A stretch of DNA of 64,000 nucleotides, taken from NCBI GenBank assembly GCA_015061625.1, contig SUWG01000005.1:1-64000 (forward strand), in the 5' to 3' direction. Origin of the DNA: Lentisphaerota bacterium. GTDB taxonomy: Bacteria; Verrucomicrobiota; Lentisphaeria; Victivallales; Victivallaceae. Shown here in pieces: positions 9,035 through 58,939 of this stretch. The position numbers were made by a program, and so were the translations under genes. The notes beneath the pieces were generated by a model. That model saw only the letters and a list, made by a program, of their open reading frames with translations. It searched no databases and was not told where the DNA came from. Numbering within the stretch: the stretch's first letter is position 1; every line of letters starts with the position of its first letter.

Positions 9035-9793
9035 ATGAAACGACTCCACCATGGTGGAGTAAAGCATACCTGCTTTACTCTTATTGAACTTCTCGTAGTC
9101 ATCGCCATCATCGCCATTCTGGCGGCGATCCTGCTCCCCGCCCTCAACTCCGCCCGTGAACGCGGCCGTACCGCCAGTTGCGTGAATAACGTCAAACAGA
9201 TCACGCAAGGCATCATGCAATACGGCGATGACAGCAGTTATCTCGCTCACGGCGGCGCATGGGCTAATGCATGGACGAAAAAAGTTGCGCCGTATATCGG
9301 TGGAACTCTTGATGCTTCAGGTGGTATTACCGCCCCCATCGACTCTCTTACCTGCCCCAGCAATCCGGCAGACTTCAGCAAATACAAAGGCAACACTTCG
9401 GTTGCTGGCGCATTCGGTCCCGGCGGCGGTTTGAGTTACATCCTCTCGCTTGCCGGCACTTACACCGACGGTGCTTCCGGTGCCTGTCAGAAGCCGCGTC
9501 ATATTTCCGATATAGTCAATCCCAGTTCCAGATATCTGGTCGTGGAAGGAAATGCCCTGTTTAAGGCTGATGGTTCCAATAAAGACCCCAATTTGCATAC
9601 CTACGGTCAGGATGCGTATGTTCAAGACCTGCGTTTCTCTCATCCGGCTGGAAAAACCGGTACAGTGGTTTCCAGTTTTGCTGATGCCGGTGGTATGACC
9701 ATCGGTTTCATGGATGCTCATGTCGAGGTCAAAACCGGTATCAAGAGTGGTAATTCCGGACAGGATCAGGCATCCTGGTACTATGTTAAGTAA
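9035..9793 (+). CDS. Prepilin-like protein (type II secretion/pilin N-terminus, DUF1559-like)
   Basis: 252 residues. After a short positively charged leader ([13 protein letters not shown]) comes the class III prepilin signal F-TLIE with the hydrophobic helix [19 protein letters not shown] and NSARERGR, so a prepilin peptidase probably cuts before Phe14 and methylates it. The rest is a globular domain with a C-terminal [10 protein letters not shown] motif, related to the H-X9-DG domain of DUF1559-type proteins. Such proteins are abundant in Lentisphaerae; most have no known partner. It lies 23 bp upstream of a large secreted glycosidase-like gene and is probably co-transcribed with it. Codons 3-16 contain the overlapping hairpins listed separately. 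Confidence 0.9.
9043..9080 (+). repeat. Two overlapping inverted repeats inside the prepilin start
   Basis: ACTCCACCATGGTGGAGT (9043-9060) is a perfect 18-bp palindrome. It overlaps a second inverted repeat with a 10-bp stem, GAGTAAAGCA (9057-9066) and TGCTTTACTC (9071-9080), loop TACC. The GAGT at 9057-9060 belongs to both, so the two structures compete. The same arrangement with changed arms is found at 24100, 25032 and 45411. Confidence 0.9.
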
Positions 9794-9816: not shown

Positions 9817-12800
9817 ATGCGTAAGTTTCTTGTTTTGTTGACAGTTCTTTCCGCCGCTTTTACTGTGGCGGCGGAAAATATGGTAAGAAATGCTGATTTT
9901 TCCAGCCGGACCAGTGCCGGTCTGCCCCACTACTGGCTGGTGCGCGGTAAAGCCGATGGTTTCCGTCCGGCTGACGGCGCAATGACTATGGGTAAAGCCG
10001 ATGAGGTCATCTGGCTCATCCAGTATCTGCCCGAAGATCTTGAGCGCGGTAAGGAATATGAATTTTCTTTCACCGTCAGCGGCCGCGGACAGTACCGGGC
10101 CTATGCCGAGTGGTCATATTTCCAGGATGGCAAAAAACATCTGCGTTCCACCGGCGGCGGTTTGCGTAATACGCCCGCTGACAATACCCCGGTGCGCATC
10201 GTTTTCACCCTGCCGGATAATGCCCAGCGGCCCTACATCGTGTTTCAGGCCCCCAAAGGCAGTGAAGTTACTTTCCGGGATGTGAAATTCACCCCCTATA
10301 TCCGCCCGCTGGTCGCCAATGCCGACTTCGTCCAGATCGCCGGTAACGGCAAAGCGGTCGATTGGGCCACCCGCGGCACCGCCGATCAATTCACCTTTGC
10401 CCCCGGCAAAGTCACCATGCGTTCCGCAGAGGGCAAAAATGCCTACCTCATTCAGGATCTGCAGAAACGTCTGCTCCCCGGCGCAACTTACCGGATGACG
10501 TGCAAAGTTTCCGCCAAAGCCAACAGCCGTTTCCGCTGTTATGTCGAAAGTTCCTTCGTCGTTTCCGGTCAACGCTCCACCAAGGCGTTCCACGCTCAAT
10601 GGACGACTCTGGAAGCCGGGGAAAAGGTCGTTTCCTATGAATTCACCATGGGCAATACTGCCATCGGCGCTCTGCTCGTTTTCAATATCATGGGTGATGC
10701 CGAAGTGACCGTCAGCGATATCAAAATGGAATTGCTCAATGCTCCCAATCCCCCGATCGTCGTGCCGCAGCAGCCGGTTTTTGGCGGCGCATGGCAGGGC
10801 CGCGGTATCACCGCCGACGGCAATCAGGTGACCATCCCCAGAGGTGCGACCGCCACCCGCTGGATGATCGAACTTATCCCCGGTAAAAGATATACCATCA
10901 CCCACTCTTCCAGAGGTGAGGGCAAAAGCGACAGCGATTCCGGATTCTACTTCTACGATACCAAAGTGCGTTTCACCAACGGCAAAATCGTGCAGATCGC
11001 CCACGAAGATACCGGAAGACTTCTGCAGAATAAATCCTACACCTTTGTCGCCCAGACCCCGACCGCCATTCTGGAAATCATCCCCTGCGGCGTGGATAAT
11101 CTCATCATCCGGGAACTCCAACTGCGTGAAGCCCCCCCCGAAGCCGAAGTCGTGCCGGAGTTGACCTTCTATCTCCAGCGCAACAAAATCTACAGCAAAC
11201 TGCATCCGGCAACCGTGGATGGATATCTTTCCAATCCGCATAACGCCGCTTCCGCCAAAATCATTTTCAACGGCGAAACCTACACCACCACCAAAGACGG
11301 CAACCTTTTCCGCTTTACGCTCAAAACCGCCGGTCTGGCGGTCGGTTCATACGAAGTGACCGCTGAATTGACCGCCGCCAACGGCAGCAAAACTACCGTC
11401 AAAAGCGAAATTACCGTCATGCCCCCCGCCCCGACCGAAGTCACCGTCGGCCCCGGAAGGCTCCTCTATGTCAATGGTCAACCCTACCTCGCCATCGGCC
11501 CGTGGGCTCTGCCCAATTCCCATAACCCCAGCGTTATGGAATTCGCCGCCCAACGCGGGGTGAACTTCCTCAAGGTCCGTTTCGCCGATCCGGTGAAATT
11601 CAAGGAGTACCTCGACCTCGCCCACCGCTACGGTATGAAAGTTTGCTTCAATACCGGTTCTCCTTCCGATGCCAGCGACGGTGCCTACCGCACCTGGCTC
11701 CACGGCGTCGAATCCGTCCTCACTCCGGAAATCCTCGCTCACCCCGCTCTGCTCTGCTACTTCCTGCAGGATGAGCCTTTCTGGGTCGGATATCCCGTAA
11801 CTGTACTCGACCGCTGTTACAAAGAAATGCAGCGCATCGACCCCTACCGCCCCGTCTGGATCAATGCCGCTCCCCGCGGCACTCATGCCGATCAGATCCC
11901 CTTCGCCAGAGTTTGCGATATCTACGGCGTGGATATCTATCCCGTACCCGCTTCATCCGGTCACAGCCATCTGGAAGATAAAACCATCGCCTGTGTCGGC
12001 AAATACGCCCTGCGTAAAGCCGAGATCGCCGGTGATACCAAACCGATCGCTATGGCTCTGCAAGGCTTCTCATGGCGCGCCATGAGCGATAAAGTCGAGA
12101 GTGACCGCTCCGTCTATCCGACCGCTCATGAAAACCGCTTCATGACCTTCGACTGCCTGATCAATGAATCCGCCATGCTCGGCTGGTGGGGTACCGGTTA
12201 CATCCTCGTTCCGGAATTCTACAACGTACTCTATGCTCAATTCGATGAATTGCGCCGCCTCTATCCCATCCTTATCGGCAACGCTTCACGCCGTCAGGAG
12301 ACCCGTGACGGCATTGAATACCGCACCTACACCGGTAACGGTTACACCATGATCATCTCCGCCAATCCCACCGAAGAACGGCGCACCGGTACTTTTACCA
12401 ATACCGGATTTACCGGTTCCGTCACCGAATGGGCCACCGGACGCAAACTTATCGCCGATAACGGTAACTTCAGCGACTCTTTTGAACCTTTCGCCGTTCA
12501 TATCTACTATCAGGGTACGCTCCCGGCATCCGCCACTTCCGCCGCCAATGACCCCGCCCACAACAACCCCTTTACCGAGGATGTTCGCCTGCGGGTCAAC
12601 GGCCGTATCTATGACGGTAACGGCGTCTGGATCTGGAATGCTTCCGGTATCGGCGTCAGAGGCAGTACCGCTGTGCTGCGCAAAACTTTCACCGTCACCG
12701 GTCAGACCACCGTGCGTATCCACATTTCCGCCGATGACCGCGCCGAAATCTACTGCAACGGCCGCAAAGCCGGGGAAGTTTCCGACTTTACTTTCATGCA

Positions 12801-13038
12801 GAGGATCGACCTGACCCCATTCATCGTCAACGGCGAAAATACCATCGAGATCCACGCCGCCGACGGCGGCATCCTGCCCTGCGGCGTGCTGGCAGAGATC
12901 CACGCCGGAAGTCAGATCTATGCCACCGGCAGTGACTGGCTCGGCGCGGCAACCGTCGATGGACCTTTCGTTCCCGCCGGTGTCGTCGCCAAATTCGGCG
13001 AAGAGGCGTGGGGACGCGGCGTCCGCTTCTGCCCTTAA
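9817..13038 (+). CDS. Large secreted glycosidase-like protein with CBM-type repeats
   Basis: 1073 residues with a signal peptide (MRKFLVLLTVLSAAFTVAA). Residues about 20-310 hold two tandem carbohydrate-binding-like beta domains (both open with NADF and have TFRDVKF/TVSDIKM-type ends, like CBM4_9), then a third sandwich (about 320-440). A TIM-barrel follows (about 545-850; VNGQPYLAIGPWALP, MKVCFNTG, LLCYFLQDEPFW, DIYGVDIYPV). The E in QDEPFW is a good candidate catalytic acid. The C-terminus (about 920-1050) is a galactose-binding-like fold (STAVLRKTFTV, AEIYCNGRKAG). It resembles GH5/GH42-clan proteins, but the exact family is not recognised. Secreted or periplasmic; paired with the prepilin at 9035. 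Confidence 0.8.
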   Translation: MRKFLVLLTVLSAAFTVAAENMVRNADFSSRTSAGLPHYWLVRGKADGFRPADGAMTMGKADEVIWLIQYLPEDLERGKEYEFSFTVSGRGQYRAYAEWSYFQDGKKHLRSTGGGLRNTPADNTPVRIVFTLPDNAQRPYIVFQAPKGSEVTFRDVKFTPYIRPLVANADFVQIAGNGKAVDWATRGTADQFTFAPGKVTMRSAEGKNAYLIQDLQKRLLPGATYRMTCKVSAKANSRFRCYVESSFVVSGQRSTKAFHAQWTTLEAGEKVVSYEFTMGNTAIGALLVFNIMGDAEVTVSDIKMELLNAPNPPIVVPQQPVFGGAWQGRGITADGNQVTIPRGATATRWMIELIPGKRYTITHSSRGEGKSDSDSGFYFYDTKVRFTNGKIVQIAHEDTGRLLQNKSYTFVAQTPTAILEIIPCGVDNLIIRELQLREAPPEAEVVPELTFYLQRNKIYSKLHPATVDGYLSNPHNAASAKIIFNGETYTTTKDGNLFRFTLKTAGLAVGSYEVTAELTAANGSKTTVKSEITVMPPAPTEVTVGPGRLLYVNGQPYLAIGPWALPNSHNPSVMEFAAQRGVNFLKVRFADPVKFKEYLDLAHRYGMKVCFNTGSPSDASDGAYRTWLHGVESVLTPEILAHPALLCYFLQDEPFWVGYPVTVLDRCYKEMQRIDPYRPVWINAAPRGTHADQIPFARVCDIYGVDIYPVPASSGHSHLEDKTIACVGKYALRKAEIAGDTKPIAMALQGFSWRAMSDKVESDRSVYPTAHENRFMTFDCLINESAMLGWWGTGYILVPEFYNVLYAQFDELRRLYPILIGNASRRQETRDGIEYRTYTGNGYTMIISANPTEERRTGTFTNTGFTGSVTEWATGRKLIADNGNFSDSFEPFAVHIYYQGTLPASATSAANDPAHNNPFTEDVRLRVNGRIYDGNGVWIWNASGIGVRGSTAVLRKTFTVTGQTTVRIHISADDRAEIYCNGRKAGEVSDFTFMQRIDLTPFIVNGENTIEIHAADGGILPCGVLAEIHAGSQIYATGSDWLGAATVDGPFVPAGVVAKFGEEAWGRGVRFCP

Positions 13039-13072
13039 CCTGCTTTTCTTTTCACGGGAAAAGAAAAGCAGG
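13039..13072 (+). terminator. Strong 15-bp hairpin just after the stop codon
   Basis: CCTGCTTTTCTTTTC (13039-13053) pairs perfectly with GAAAAGAAAAGCAGG (13058-13072) across an ACGG loop, starting at the base after the TAA of the secreted glycosidase gene. It lacks a clean T run, so it may stabilise the mRNA 3' end rather than terminate. Confidence 0.6.
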
Positions 13073-15603: not shown

Positions 15604-16458
15604 ATGTCAAATCCTGATCGTGAACCTTTGGCTTTGCCCGATCCGTTTATTCTGTATCACAACGGCGTATATTACGCTTACGGTTCAAGAAATGAGGAGG
15701 GTATTCCGGTTTACACATCGGATGATATGCTCAACTGGAAGTATCACGGCATCGCATTTCATCAGGATAATGCCTGGTCGGATAAACTTTTCTGGGCTCC
15801 GGAAGTTTATAAAGTCAAAGATCGTTTTGTCATGTATGTCACCGTCAACTGGCATATTTCGGCGGCATTTGCCGATTCGCCCTGCGGCCCATTCATCCAG
15901 GATAAAAATACACCGATCTGGCCGCATGAAAGGTCGATCGACAATTCACTTTTCATCGCCCCCGACGGTCAGGCATACGTTTTCTGGAACCGGGGCGATC
16001 CCAATGGCGTTTACGTTGCCGAAGTCGAAAGCGATCTGGTCACGGTCAGAGCCGGAACTCTCCGGCTCTGTGTCACTCCGGAACTGCCGTGGGAAACGAT
16101 TCAGAATACCATTTGCGAAGGGCCGTTTTGCATCGAGCATGAAGGCAAATATATTCTGACCTATTCCGTCAATGATTACCGCAGTCAGGATTATTCCATC
16201 GGTGCCGCCGAAGCGGATCACCCGCTGGGCCCGTGGAAAAAATATGATCAGCCGCTGTTGCGCCGCCCCGGCCAACTGGTCGGCACCGGGCATCACAGTT
16301 TTTTCCATGATAAAGATGGCAAAATGCGGGCGGTTTTTCACGCCCATCACAGCGAAACGGAGATCCATCCCCGGTTGACTTATATTACGGATGTTACTTT
16401 TACGGATGGTAAAATCGCACTTTCTCCGGAGTATACTGCGTTGAAAGTGATCCGGTAA
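15604..16458 (+). CDS. Glycoside hydrolase family 43 protein
   Basis: About 284 residues. The five-bladed propeller family is recognised from LPDPFILYHNGVYYAYGS (catalytic base Asp), the second-blade WAPEVYKVKDRFVMYVTV, and the acid Glu in ICEGPFCIEHEGKYILTYS. GH43 enzymes usually act on arabinofuranosides or xylosides; some act on galactans. No signal peptide is seen, so it likely works on imported oligosaccharides. AAAGG precedes ATG 15604; a start seven codons upstream is possible but lacks a ribosome site. Immediately downstream of the GH29 gene, so probably co-expressed. Confidence 0.9.
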   Translation: MSNPDREPLALPDPFILYHNGVYYAYGSRNEEGIPVYTSDDMLNWKYHGIAFHQDNAWSDKLFWAPEVYKVKDRFVMYVTVNWHISAAFADSPCGPFIQDKNTPIWPHERSIDNSLFIAPDGQAYVFWNRGDPNGVYVAEVESDLVTVRAGTLRLCVTPELPWETIQNTICEGPFCIEHEGKYILTYSVNDYRSQDYSIGAAEADHPLGPWKKYDQPLLRRPGQLVGTGHHSFFHDKDGKMRAVFHAHHSETEIHPRLTYITDVTFTDGKIALSPEYTALKVIR

Positions 16459-24091: not shown

Positions 24092-24874
24092 ATGAAAAAA
24101 CTCCACCATGGTGGAGTAAACCGTACCCGGTTTACTCTTATCGAACTGCTCGTCGTCATTGCCATTATCGCTATTTTAGCGGCGATCCTGCTCCCCGCAT
24201 TGAATTCCGCCCGTGAGCGCGGCCGCAGTGCCAGTTGCATCAGCAATATGAAGCAGATGGGCAATGGTACCCAGGGGTACGTCAATGACTTCAACGTTTT
24301 TCCGGCGGCTTTTGTTACCAATGCCGCTTTCGGCGGACGTCAGATGATGTCATGGAAAGCATATATTTACACCTATGCTGTCGGCAGTTTCCCGACCAAT
24401 GATACCCAGCGCGGTCTGGCTCTTTCCACCGGGATTTTCCTCTGCCCGTCATGGCCGGAAGCCGAATTGGGTACGCTTTTCGATGAAACCAAATGGTCAC
24501 AGGTCGCCTTGAAAGGCGGTTACGGTTTGAACTCCAATGACAAAGACCGTCAGGCCGGTTTGGGATCGACCTATATCGGTTATGCTGCCGATCCTCTGGG
24601 CAAAGATGGTTTCACCCGCCCGACTGATATGGATTCCCCCTCGGAAACTTTGATCGTCGGTGAATCCAGTGACCGTTACAGTGACCGCAGCAATCTCACT
24701 CAATTCGGTTTTATTTACGACAGCAAAACTCCGGATGGCCGTCATGCCAATTATACCCAGATGCCGGTGCTGTGGGGCGATGGTCACGTTTCACTCATGA
24801 CCAATCAGGAGTTGGAAAGAAAACCGGCGACCAATCCCGGTGCGCGCCGCTACTACTTCTGCGTGAAAAAATAA
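24092..24874 (+). CDS. Prepilin-like protein (DUF1559-like)
   Basis: 260 residues. Leader [13 protein letters not shown], then [45 protein letters not shown]; the prepilin peptidase site is before Phe14. The C-terminus has [22 protein letters not shown], the H/DG motif of DUF1559-type domains. Nearly the same N- and C-termini are found in the next gene (25023), while the middles differ, as expected for a recent tandem duplication with diversification. Expected in the inner membrane or a pseudopilus-like structure. GAGG before the ATG; own promoter and a downstream terminator, so it is a single-gene unit. Confidence 0.9.
24100..24137 (+). repeat. Two overlapping inverted repeats inside the prepilin start
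   Basis: Palindrome ACTCCACCATGGTGGAGT (24100-24117) overlaps a 10-bp stem GAGTAAACCG (24114-24123) / CGGTTTACTC (24128-24137) with loop TACC. Relative to the copy at 9057, AAAGCA became AAACCG on the left and TGCTTT became CGGTTT on the right, keeping all pairs. Confidence 0.9.
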
Positions 24875-24890
24875 ATTATGTATCGATTTC

Positions 24891-24927
24891 CGGCTGGCAT
24901 TTTACGGTGTCAGCCGTTTTTTTTTTG
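24891..24927 (+). terminator. Rho-independent terminator after prepilin 24092
   Basis: CGGCTG (24891-24896) pairs with CAGCCG (24911-24916) and is followed by a run of ten T residues. Confidence 0.75.
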
Positions 24928-24944
24928 AAAAATTCACATTTTTC

Positions 24945-24973
24945 TTGACAAATATCATGTCGCCGTGTATATT
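24945..24973 (+). promoter_or_regulatory. Strong predicted promoter for prepilin gene 25023
   Basis: TTGACA (24945-24950), 17-bp spacer, TATATT (24968-24973). The leader is about 45 nt. Confidence 0.75.
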
Positions 24974-25022
24974 ATAAATGTTCCACAACATCTTAACTTA
25001 CAACAAAAAAGGAAAAACGAAA

Positions 25023-25802
25023 ATGAAACAGCTCCGGTATACCGGAGTAAACCGTACCCGGTTTACTCTTATCGAATTGCTCGTCGTCATCGCCATTATC
25101 GCCATTTTAGCGGCGATTCTGCTCCCGGCATTGAACTCCGCCCGTGAGCGCGGCCGCAGTGCCAGTTGTATCAGCAATTTGAAGCAGATGGGTAACGGGA
25201 TGATGGGGTATACCAATGACTTCAATCTTTTTCCGATCAGTACCCTCAATACCAAACTCGGCGGTGGTAATGCTTCCAGTTGGAAATATCAAATTTATAT
25301 CTACGCTGTAGGTGATCCCGGTTCCACTCTCCTTGATTACGGCAAAGCGGTTTCTTCCGGAATTTTCCTCTGCCCGTCATGGAGTACGGATACCATGTCA
25401 AAAGTTGCTTTCGGAACTGCGTGGCAGGATTACGCCGCTATGGGCGGTTACGGCTACACTTACGGACATCATTCGCATAACTACAGACCGAGCGGTTTTA
25501 CTTCCGGTTATATCGGCTATACCGGTAACAATCAGGCATTTTACACTTGCCGGCCTACTGATTTGGAATCTCCGTCGGAAACTTTGATCGTCGGCGAAAC
25601 CGGTGACCAGACTGCCACCGACCGCAACCACGCAACCTTGATTTACGAGGGTGAAACTCCCAATGGCCGTCATGCCAACTATACCCAGATGCCGGTGTTG
25701 TGGGCTGATGCTCACGTTTCAATGATGACCAATGAAGAGTTGGCCAAGCCGCTCGGTAACGGCGGAGTAAAATATTATTTTGCTCCGTACAAAAAACGTT
25801 AA
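25023..25802 (+). CDS. Prepilin-like protein (DUF1559-like)
   Basis: About 259 residues from ATG 25023 (AGGA upstream); the open frame runs 15 codons further back but into the promoter. Leader [13 protein letters not shown], then [45 protein letters not shown]. The C-terminal [24 protein letters not shown] matches the 24092 protein, with DGH replaced by DAH. The middle is different, so the pair are diverged duplicates. The leader residues differ from the other prepilins (RYTG instead of HHGG), yet the DNA palindrome there is intact. Has its own promoter and terminator. Confidence 0.9.
25032..25068 (+). repeat. Two overlapping inverted repeats inside the prepilin start (variant arms)
   Basis: Palindrome CTCCGGTATACCGGAG (25032-25047) overlaps the stem GAGTAAACCG (25045-25054) / CGGTTTACTC (25059-25068), loop TACC. 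Versus the CTCCACC/GGTGGAG form, three base pairs changed on both arms (A-T to G-C, C-G to G-C, C-G to T-A). Confidence 0.9.
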
Positions 25803-25927: not shown

Positions 25928-26033
25928 ATGAAACAGCTCCGGCATACCGGAGTAAAGCAATCATCGCCATTTTAGCGGCAATTCTGCTTCCGGCATTGAA
26001 TTCCGCCCGTGAGCGCGGCCGCAGTGTGGAGTG
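25928..26033 (+). pseudogene. Prepilin gene remnant fused to a repeat island
   Basis: The AAAAGGA ribosome site, ATG and first codons match prepilin 25023 (ATGAAACAGCTCCGG), and the first hairpin is nearly intact (CTCCGG-CATA-CCGGAG, 25937-25952). About 40 bp that should encode FTLIELLVV are then missing: AGTAAAGCA runs straight into ATCATCGCCATTTTAG, shifting the frame to an early stop. The coding similarity continues through GCCCGTGAGCGCGGCCGCAGTG and then changes abruptly into the repeat module that begins GGCCGCAGTGTGG. It cannot make a prepilin. Confidence 0.9.
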
Positions 26034-26087
26034 GCTCACGGGCGGTTGACACCGCCCTTTACAGGGGCTGCCGCCCCCGTACCCCCG

Positions 26088-27140: not shown

Positions 27141-27163
27141 TTATTAGTATGTTATACTAATAA
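27141..27163 (+). promoter_or_regulatory. Perfect inverted repeat just before the ribosome site of the 27183 gene
   Basis: TTATTAGTAT (27141-27150) and ATACTAATAA (27154-27163) form a perfect 10-bp inverted repeat with a GTT centre, seven bases before AGGAG. Upstream, TTGTTT and TAAATT could form a promoter, so this may be a repressor site at the start of transcription or a leader hairpin. Confidence 0.6.
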
Positions 27164-45402: not shown

Positions 45403-46107
45403 ATGAAAAGACTCCACCATGGTGGAGTAAAGCACTCATGCTTTACTCTTATTGAACTGCTCGTGGTCATCGCCATCATCGCTATTTTAGCGGCGATACT
45501 GCTCCCCGCTCTCAACAGTGCCAGAGAGCGCGGCCGGGCGGCAAGTTGTATCAGCAACCTTAAACAACTGGGTAATGCGGTGCAGTTTTATGCAGATGCC
45601 AACGATGATTTTCTGCCGGCAAGTCAGGGGCCTAATGGCGGTTCGCCGATCTGGTATCAATGTTTGACTCAAATTATTTATCCCGGCAATGGTATTAATG
45701 ACGGTGGTGGTGTTTTTGTCTGTCCGTCATGTCCTTATGATATGCCTGATGGTACTGCTCCGAGACATTCATACGGATATAACAGTTCCTGTTATCAGTA
45801 TAATGCCACCAGTGGTGCTAATTATGAACTGCGTTTTAAGGAATATCGCAAAATTACCAAAATCGTCAGAGCCACTGAAAGACCGTTGATCGTGGACTTT
45901 TTCTGGTTTGACCGGCCGGATAACAATCGTTTTACGTGGTTCGGTTCTGGAGATTTCTTTGATGAAACAGATAATAGGTTCAACCGGATGAATTGGCACA
46001 ATAAGAGTACCAATATGCTTTCTCCGGCGGGGAATGTATTCAGCGACAAAGCAACCAAAACTCAATACCCTCTCGGCAGAGTTGAATTTTATTACGACAC
46101 CTGGTGA
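45403..46107 (+). CDS. Prepilin-like protein (DUF1559-like)
   Basis: About 235 residues from ATG 45403, with AAAGGA upstream; an ATG 12 codons earlier lacks a site. Leader [13 protein letters not shown], then [45 protein letters not shown]. The C-terminal part has [19 protein letters not shown], a weaker form of the H-X9-DG region. It follows the GntR gene by 32 bp without an obvious promoter, and precedes a secreted TIM-barrel protein by 25 bp, repeating the prepilin-hydrolase pairing of 9035-13038. Confidence 0.88.
45411..45448 (+). repeat. Two overlapping inverted repeats inside the prepilin start
   Basis: Palindrome ACTCCACCATGGTGGAGT (45411-45428) and stem GAGTAAAGCA (45425-45434) / TGCTTTACTC (45439-45448). 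The loop is CTCA instead of TACC, so loops vary while stems are kept. Confidence 0.9.
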
Positions 46108-58859: not shown

Positions 58860-58939
58860 GAGGTCGGCGCAAGTTGCGCCGACACCACCTGCCGCAAGCG
58901 AAGTTGTGCGACAGCACAACACTTGAGCGTAAGGCAGTT

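Follow-up and report, generated by a model that had tools for sequence, protein, structure and literature searches.

We propose, with moderate confidence, that the palindromes found in the coding leaders of a bacterial prepilin family arise and persist through strand-switching DNA synthesis, are spread and swapped among some 60-70 paralogues and are tolerated in a leader that is presumably cleaved off. Firstly, template switching at fold-back DNA would copy one arm onto the other and so keep the palindromes perfect. Secondly, the same strand-switching synthesis would invert loops and duplicate the palindrome unit. Thirdly, gene conversion or recombination among the many paralogues would spread and swap leaders. 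Because the leader peptide is presumably removed by prepilin peptidase, its sequence would hardly matter, and palindromes could accumulate just before the F of the FTLIELL motif. The proposal is built on features read from the sequences: the layout of the palindromes, their covariation and self-complementary centres, the few G-U steps, inverted loops, tandem units, replaced leaders and the near-restriction to the genus among the genomes sampled. A general mutational process alone, however, leaves the clustering in one gene family unexplained.

Overlapping palindromes anchored on the prepilin cleavage site

The window, i.e. the whole stretch of 64,000 nucleotides that was analysed, belongs to a 2.7-Mb genome of 44 contigs. 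It contains four prepilin-like genes, whose proteins match TIGR02532 and PF07596 (DUF1559) above cut-off and PF07963 slightly below cut-off. The initial annotation had described two overlapping palindromes (here S1 and S2) at each of these genes, and inverted-repeat search found all of them perfect:

9035..9793, + strand: prepilin-like gene 1 (profile matches)
9043..9060, + strand: S1 of gene 1, arms in the 8-9 bp class, loopless, perfect
9057..9080, + strand: S2 of gene 1, 10 bp arms, 4-nt loop, perfect
24092..24874, + strand: prepilin-like gene 2 (TIGR02532 N-terminus, PF07596/DUF1559)
24100..24117, + strand: S1 of gene 2, 9 bp arms, loopless, perfect
24114..24137, + strand: S2 of gene 2, 10 bp arms, 4-nt loop; F-T-L codons from 24131 in the right arm
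25023..25802, + strand: prepilin-like gene 3 (profile matches)
25032..25047, + strand: S1 of gene 3, 8 bp arms, loopless, perfect
25045..25068, + strand: S2 of gene 3, 10 bp arms, 4-nt loop, perfect
25928..26037, + strand: broken fifth prepilin copy immediately after gene 3, S1 at 25937-25952 with 6 bp arms
45403..46107, + strand: prepilin-like gene 4 (start taken as the ATG at 45403; profile matches)
45411..45428, + strand: S1 of gene 4, arms in the 8-9 bp class, loopless, perfect
45425..45448, + strand: S2 of gene 4, 10 bp arms, 4-nt loop, perfect

In the broken fifth copy, S1 and the left S2 arm remain and the FTLIELLVV(I) codons are gone; one end of the deletion (junction 25959/25960) coincides with the S2 centre.

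The pattern GGAGTAA-gap-TTTACTCT occurs four times in the window and never in 100 shuffles; in the whole genome its strict form has 15 matches and the reversed pattern none. Seven of the window's 12 palindromes with arms of at least 9 bp and loops of at most 4 nt lie within the four leaders, and five Markov controls contain 0-3 such palindromes each. In 169 starts, a set partly selected by hairpin, S2 is present in 104 and S1 in 108; ten leader shuffles of these starts gave 0-3 and 1-11, respectively. Chance origin of the leader palindromes was set aside on these three kinds of control. Further perfect palindromes with 9-10 bp arms are found outside prepilin leaders at 12069-12086, 16047-16070, 27141-27163 and 58863-58883 of the window.

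With the first base of the F codon taken as 0, most copies have S2 from -17 to +6 and the centre of S1 at -22.5. The general layout is X(-34) P1 X'(-17) P2 X(0), where the last X represents the F-T-L codons, X' is their reverse complement and each P is a segment of about 10 nt, itself palindromic or nearly so. The distance from X to X is 34 nt in most copies. Because X' is common to both palindromes, S1 and S2 cannot both form fully in one strand. Conserved protein residues are encoded by the F-T-L arm only, and the leader residues are variable.

The palindromes were at first regarded as placed by the start codon. This idea was set aside: they are anchored on the F-T-L codons, that is, on the prepilin cleavage site, and the distance from start codon to F varies (median 45 nt, range 6-96, according to a rough start-codon rule that assigned a start in 102 of 112 cases). 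Among the shortest distances are 13 in which the ATG lies inside S2.

Two hairpin types can be distinguished. The first, present in the window, combines a loopless S1 with a looped S2. In this type and in some others, X' follows the synonymous spellings of the F-T-L codons (GAGTAAA/TTTACTC, GGGTAAA/TTTACCC, AGGTGAA/TTCACCT, AAGTGAA/TTCACTT). The second type has a looped S1, whose sequence is quite different in each gene, and an S2 core that is mostly the loopless GCCCATGGGC; here X' is complementary to the F-T-L codons over their first bases only. At least one of the two palindromes is loopless in 94 of 99 copies and S2 alone in 44 of 109, and the mutual exclusion of looped S1 and looped S2 has a Fisher p of about 8e-7 with relatedness ignored. 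In some second-type leaders (L058, L062, L192) the core GCCCATGGGC supplies a possible internal start, namely an ATG that lies in frame two codons ahead of F and in some cases follows an AGGA-like site. Still another leader type (L051, L064, L213, L331) is a series of hairpins with CTTCA-like spacers between them; the final hairpin uses the FTLIE codons in a different register.

The palindromes do not occur in every prepilin start, as had been supposed. The window's own genome has 82 distinct FTLIELL sites, 19 of them second copies behind a mobile insert (see below), which leaves 63 first sites. S1 and S2 are both found in 36 of these, S2 only in one, a different multi-hairpin leader in two and no such hairpin in 24. 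This set is based on 76 of 80 match places, those left out (C3:732, C12:33932, C12:35283, C44:14542) all having E >0.01. Two related genomes, each represented by most of its matches, carry both stems at 9 of 40 sites (G003) and 14 of 63 sites (G031), where 16 and 24 of the sites, respectively, are second FTLIELLs. Other genera of the family and order contributed 49 starts, of which none has S2 and one has S1. These are the less biased sets; the start sets that include the comparisons of G003, G031 and a third relative, G025, were partly chosen by hairpin, because patterns fetched many of the loci.

The strict pattern, which is blind to other spellings, is present in the own genome and in 11 of 59 relatives, all 11 within the 33 relatives of the genus (ranks of genus, family and order are those of the genome collection). 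A scan of genome contigs with the hairpin pattern returned 70 contigs, 65 of them from Lentisphaeria or Lentisphaerae MAGs; where a title gives the source, it is sheep colon, yak colon or roe deer caecum. The other five belong to Fimbriimonadaceae, Elusimicrobiaceae (two), Planctomycetaceae and Kaiserbacteria, and four of these have neither stem. The Kaiserbacteria start (L181, JACQKD010000003.1), outside the phylum, has a 12-bp S2-like palindrome on its FTL codons and no S1; it is either a chance or a parallel case. Hairpin leaders thus appear nearly restricted to the genus among the genomes sampled.

Covariation, DNA copying and RNA folding

The initial annotation stated that the arms change together while the encoded residues change, and suggested a covariation test on the starts of FTLIELL genes. 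Such a test gave a strong signal in both stems. We used a gap-free alignment of 90 leaders from 121 eligible rows; the 31 rows dropped by hand include five tandem copies and near-duplicates. Standard pairs occupy 93.2% of cells in S2 (shuffled 79.8, slid 32-51) and 78.8% in S1 (shuffled 57.2, slid 33-48), percentages that are raised by the entry rule, under which each stem needed 5 or more Watson-Crick pairs out of 7. With relatedness uncontrolled, the covariation score is 0.390 for S2 (slid controls 0.074-0.182) and 0.607 for S1 (0.086-0.195), in both cases above all 500 shuffles. The number of pairs with changes on both sides and the number of pair types were matched by 88 and 116 of 500 shuffles for S2, and by 436 and 332 for S1; these counts do not exceed the shuffles because the columns are so variable.

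Covariation of this strength would be expected of a cis-acting RNA, in which mRNA hairpins, possibly alternative stems competing for the common X', control prepilin translation. S2 is indeed the main predicted RNA fold in all four window copies (z from -1.9 to -4.3). The details of pairing are less favourable to such a function. In the inner S1 pairs (columns 8-12), 165 of 450 cells are changed on both sides, none on one side, and eight are unpaired. In the inner S2 pairs (columns 27-29), 79 of 270 cells are changed on both sides, five are G-U and three unpaired. When all ten pairs are counted, S2 has 12 one-sided cells and S1 has 27, a point against template switching. They lie mainly at the outer pairs: seven fall on the outermost S2 pair, and 20 of the 27 in S1 are U-G in column 7 with 22. 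There, S2 also constrains X', and the upstream arm is apparently decaying. In stems with a single mismatch among the five inner pairs, G-T and A-C are about equally frequent (1 versus 3 in S1, 4 versus 3 in S2) and therefore give no sign of RNA tolerance. A few copies (L056, L060, L083) decay without compensation.

The centre of S1 is another obstacle. Its central 4-mer is self-complementary at 78 of 106 sites (36 of 62 when each distinct stem is counted once), where chance would give 1 in 16, and 13 different palindromic 4-mers occur there. As no hairpin can pair its four innermost bases, this fits an RNA hairpin poorly, and none of the four window copies has S1 in its predicted RNA fold. Inner pairs and S1 centres break the G-U and loop rules of RNA helices; some G-U occurs in the outer pairs, and S2 folds well. 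A known RNA family was dropped from consideration, as the window has no Rfam match at gathering score. Control of translation is further opposed by the anchoring on F instead of ATG, by the 24 first sites that do without any such hairpin and by the fast replacement of leaders between orthologues (next section). We therefore regard a cis-acting RNA as decidedly unlikely.

The pairing signal seems instead to originate in DNA copying and in recombination, at a site that tolerates change. Of the initial claim that selection acts on nucleic acid pairing, the covariation stands; the selection derived from it, above all in the form of a translation switch, is weakened by the few inner G-U steps, the S1 centres and their missing fold, and by exact loop inversions and quick leader replacement. 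Among the functions that had been offered, the evidence comes closest to a recombination hot spot of the prepilin family. Covariation commonly passes for proof of a functional RNA structure; in this large bacterial case the same signal seems to arise from DNA copying. Self-complementary centres, few G-U steps and exact loop inversions are the marks that separate the two.

Leader turnover, tandem units and insertions

Exact loop inversion was observed between orthologues of G003 and G031 in L304/L305, L347/L363 and L352/L359, with flank identities of 62/62, 61/62 and 50/62, and in one paralogue pair, L188/L304. In other G003-G031 pairs the loop is unchanged (L188/L313, L025/L032, L357/L379), and comparisons between the own genome and G025 gave no inversion. 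Overall, loop comparisons, mostly of paralogues, comprise 29 non-inverted differences versus four inversions, with 14 loops identical. In L062/L192 and L080/L226 the loops changed and the arms were kept. Selection on the stems would also yield this outcome, which speaks for a cis-acting RNA and counts against template switching. Both stems and loops are kept in L052/L198, L066/L207 and L025/L032.

Leaders are replaced quickly between orthologues. In 45 cross-genome pairs about 75-100% identical, with orthologues called by protein-tail identity alone and starts directly before an insert excluded, the leader differs in 31. Between the own genome and G025 (22 pairs, proteins about 75-100% identical) five leaders are the same and 17 different; between G003 and G031 (23 pairs) nine are the same and 14 different. 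A different leader may be another hairpin (L010/L218, L014/L215, L015/L239, L053/L201), a hairpin versus none (L078/L229, L206/L322), or two unlike leaders both free of hairpins. It may also lie behind an insert in one gene and be insert-free in the other (L091/L233, L084/L230), in which case the stretches are not strictly like-for-like. In L091/L233 and L064/L214, and not in others, synonymous differences cluster within the first 75-90 nt that code for the mature protein, which would be expected from an exchange of leader and N-terminal helix among paralogues. Recombination tracts were judged by eye in 19 chosen pairs, several of which diverge along the whole gene. L124 appears to combine the left half of one S1 with the right half of a different S1, the two meeting at the centre.

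The unit itself has a recurrent length. In 138 readings it measures 34 nt in 113, 31 in 12, 32 in nine, 35 in three and 37 in one; six more readings of 62-70 represent tandem units. None of the 138 lengths is divisible by three, which is mostly explained by one 34-nt founder and 3-nt indels. Nine starts have a tandem second unit, of 34 nt (five), 35 nt (three) or 31 nt (one), and identity between the two units is 86-100%. Each of the nine has an ATG, preceded by a ribosome-site-like motif, whose frame agrees with that of the first unit and not with that of FTLIELL. The tandem units look like recent duplications of working genes. An assembly artefact is unlikely to account for tandem units or inversions, as most arms have 9-12 nt; this is shorter than usual assembly words. 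The most exposed copies are L038 and L072 with arms of 29-30 bp. Ribosome bypass, which has precedents in yeast mitochondria and T4 gene 60, finds no support here as an explanation of the tandem units.

Could the tandem units be a programmed phase switch, with one unit in frame and two out, which turns individual prepilin genes on and off? Unit number changes the frame in all nine starts, the near-identity of the units would suit such a switch, and the frame beyond FTLIELL is open in the three tandem genes listed (L072, 243 aa; L002, 329 aa; L016, 174 aa). The loss of frame, however, follows arithmetically whenever an in-frame gene duplicates a unit not divisible by three. Moreover, no allele was seen in both states: among 33 genomes of the genus, L072 has four relatives at 37-41% identity and L016 only itself, so that neither has a close orthologue. 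L072 also has an additional ATG just upstream that would be in frame with no unit. We consider a programmed switch very unlikely. Programmed diversification at the DNA level in a wider sense, in which units are flipped, rewritten, doubled and exchanged so that genes go off and on and leaders are reshuffled among paralogues, is quite unlikely as well.

A constant unit length and tandem copies may also be the traces of a small mobile palindromic element, similar to Rickettsia palindromic elements or REPs, which would insert at TTYAC and duplicate the 7-nt target X, its copies diverging afterwards. Direct repeats X do flank the unit on both sides, the unit is present in one orthologue and absent from the other in L078/L229, L206/L322, L209/L324 and L348/L360, and another in-frame insert, about 180 bp long, occupies the identical place. 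The copies, however, are alike in geometry and not in sequence. S1 arms of the second type are wholly different between genes, X' often copies the codon spelling of its own target, and the five remaining long palindromes of the window (12 minus 7) do not resemble copies of the leader unit. Y1 (RAYT) transposase was found in 10 of 33 genomes of the genus; it is absent from the own genome and from the hairpin-bearing G003, G012, G021, G025, G028 and G031. A REP/RAYT system was rejected, as Y1 matches do not track hairpin presence. Integron attC sites were rejected too: no integrase exceeds the TIGR02249 cut-off in any of the 33 genomes, and the weak matches in 32 of them are paralleled in 14 of 14 control genomes. 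On balance, a mobile element as origin of the 34-nt unit is unlikely.

The larger insert lies in frame behind FTLIELLV in many starts, usually measures about 180 nt from first F to second F, codes for ...STVISSLHFLTQK..., carries its own hairpin and ends in a second FTLIELLV, which it thereby duplicates (for example L012:1519-1720, L080, L233). It is missing from a near-identical orthologue (L091/L233). The own genome has it behind 14 first sites (of 63) and behind one second site. As 19 second sites are seen, a few first sites must lie beyond contig ends or have been filtered out. The hairpin-bearing half also occurs away from FTLIELL codons (L145, L169, L177), and its loop is inverted in L361 compared with the usual direction in 85. 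The insert behaves like a Rickettsia palindromic element and shows that insertions are tolerated at this spot. In the window, a hairpin with 15 bp arms at 13039-13072 directly follows the long ORF 9817-13038; its loop region CACGGG is the inverse of the insert's usual CCCGTG. It is possibly a relative of the insert hairpin.

With tens of parallel loci in each genome, these leaders provide a natural assay in which birth, perfect upkeep and loss of palindromes can be followed. They may also bring to light a frame switch within a gene family of gut bacteria.

Comparison with known systems

In titles and abstracts of open-access papers (subscription journals being outside the scope), no palindromes in prepilin leaders or in Lentisphaeria were found. 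Several described systems share parts of the picture. Rickettsia palindromic elements are palindromic DNA of about 150 bp inserted in frame within unrelated protein genes (PMC10969869). The insert of about 180 bp works in a similar way. Copies of the 34-nt unit have geometry in common and not sequence, except for X in the window's type, and were seen in one family, where palindromes outside FTLIELL leaders were compared within the window only.

Small hairpin inversions of chloroplast DNA, described in PMC2903610, which cites Kelchner and Wendel 1996, likewise flip loops flanked by inverted repeats between relatives. They concern non-coding plastid DNA, whereas the prepilin case affects coding DNA at one repeated gene position. 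Simultaneous multiple compensatory changes and inverted loops have been named as marks of template switching (PMC8794818). In that study the combination of compensatory change with loop inversion was rare, a point against our proposal. Prepilin leaders share with those hairpins several compensatory changes at once, inverted loops and insertion in stem halves. That signal is diffuse and comes from rRNA genes; ours is concentrated in one family of one genus.

Perfect inverted repeats within coding sequence, for which template switching was proposed, have been described in mitochondrial genes of Nematomorpha (PMC6649704). Arms there also change in concert, overlapping hairpins compete and have direct repeats, and many positions are species-specific. 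The nematomorph repeats are found in an organelle and in many genes, reach 142 bp and code for conserved residues in both arms. The last property is not shared by prepilin leaders, where one arm lies in the variable leader. The prepilin palindromes are bacterial, confined to one paralogous family and one fixed place, have short arms and show loop inversion and tandem units in addition. Taken together, they resemble the nematomorph mitochondrial coding palindromes, in what would be a new, targeted bacterial setting.
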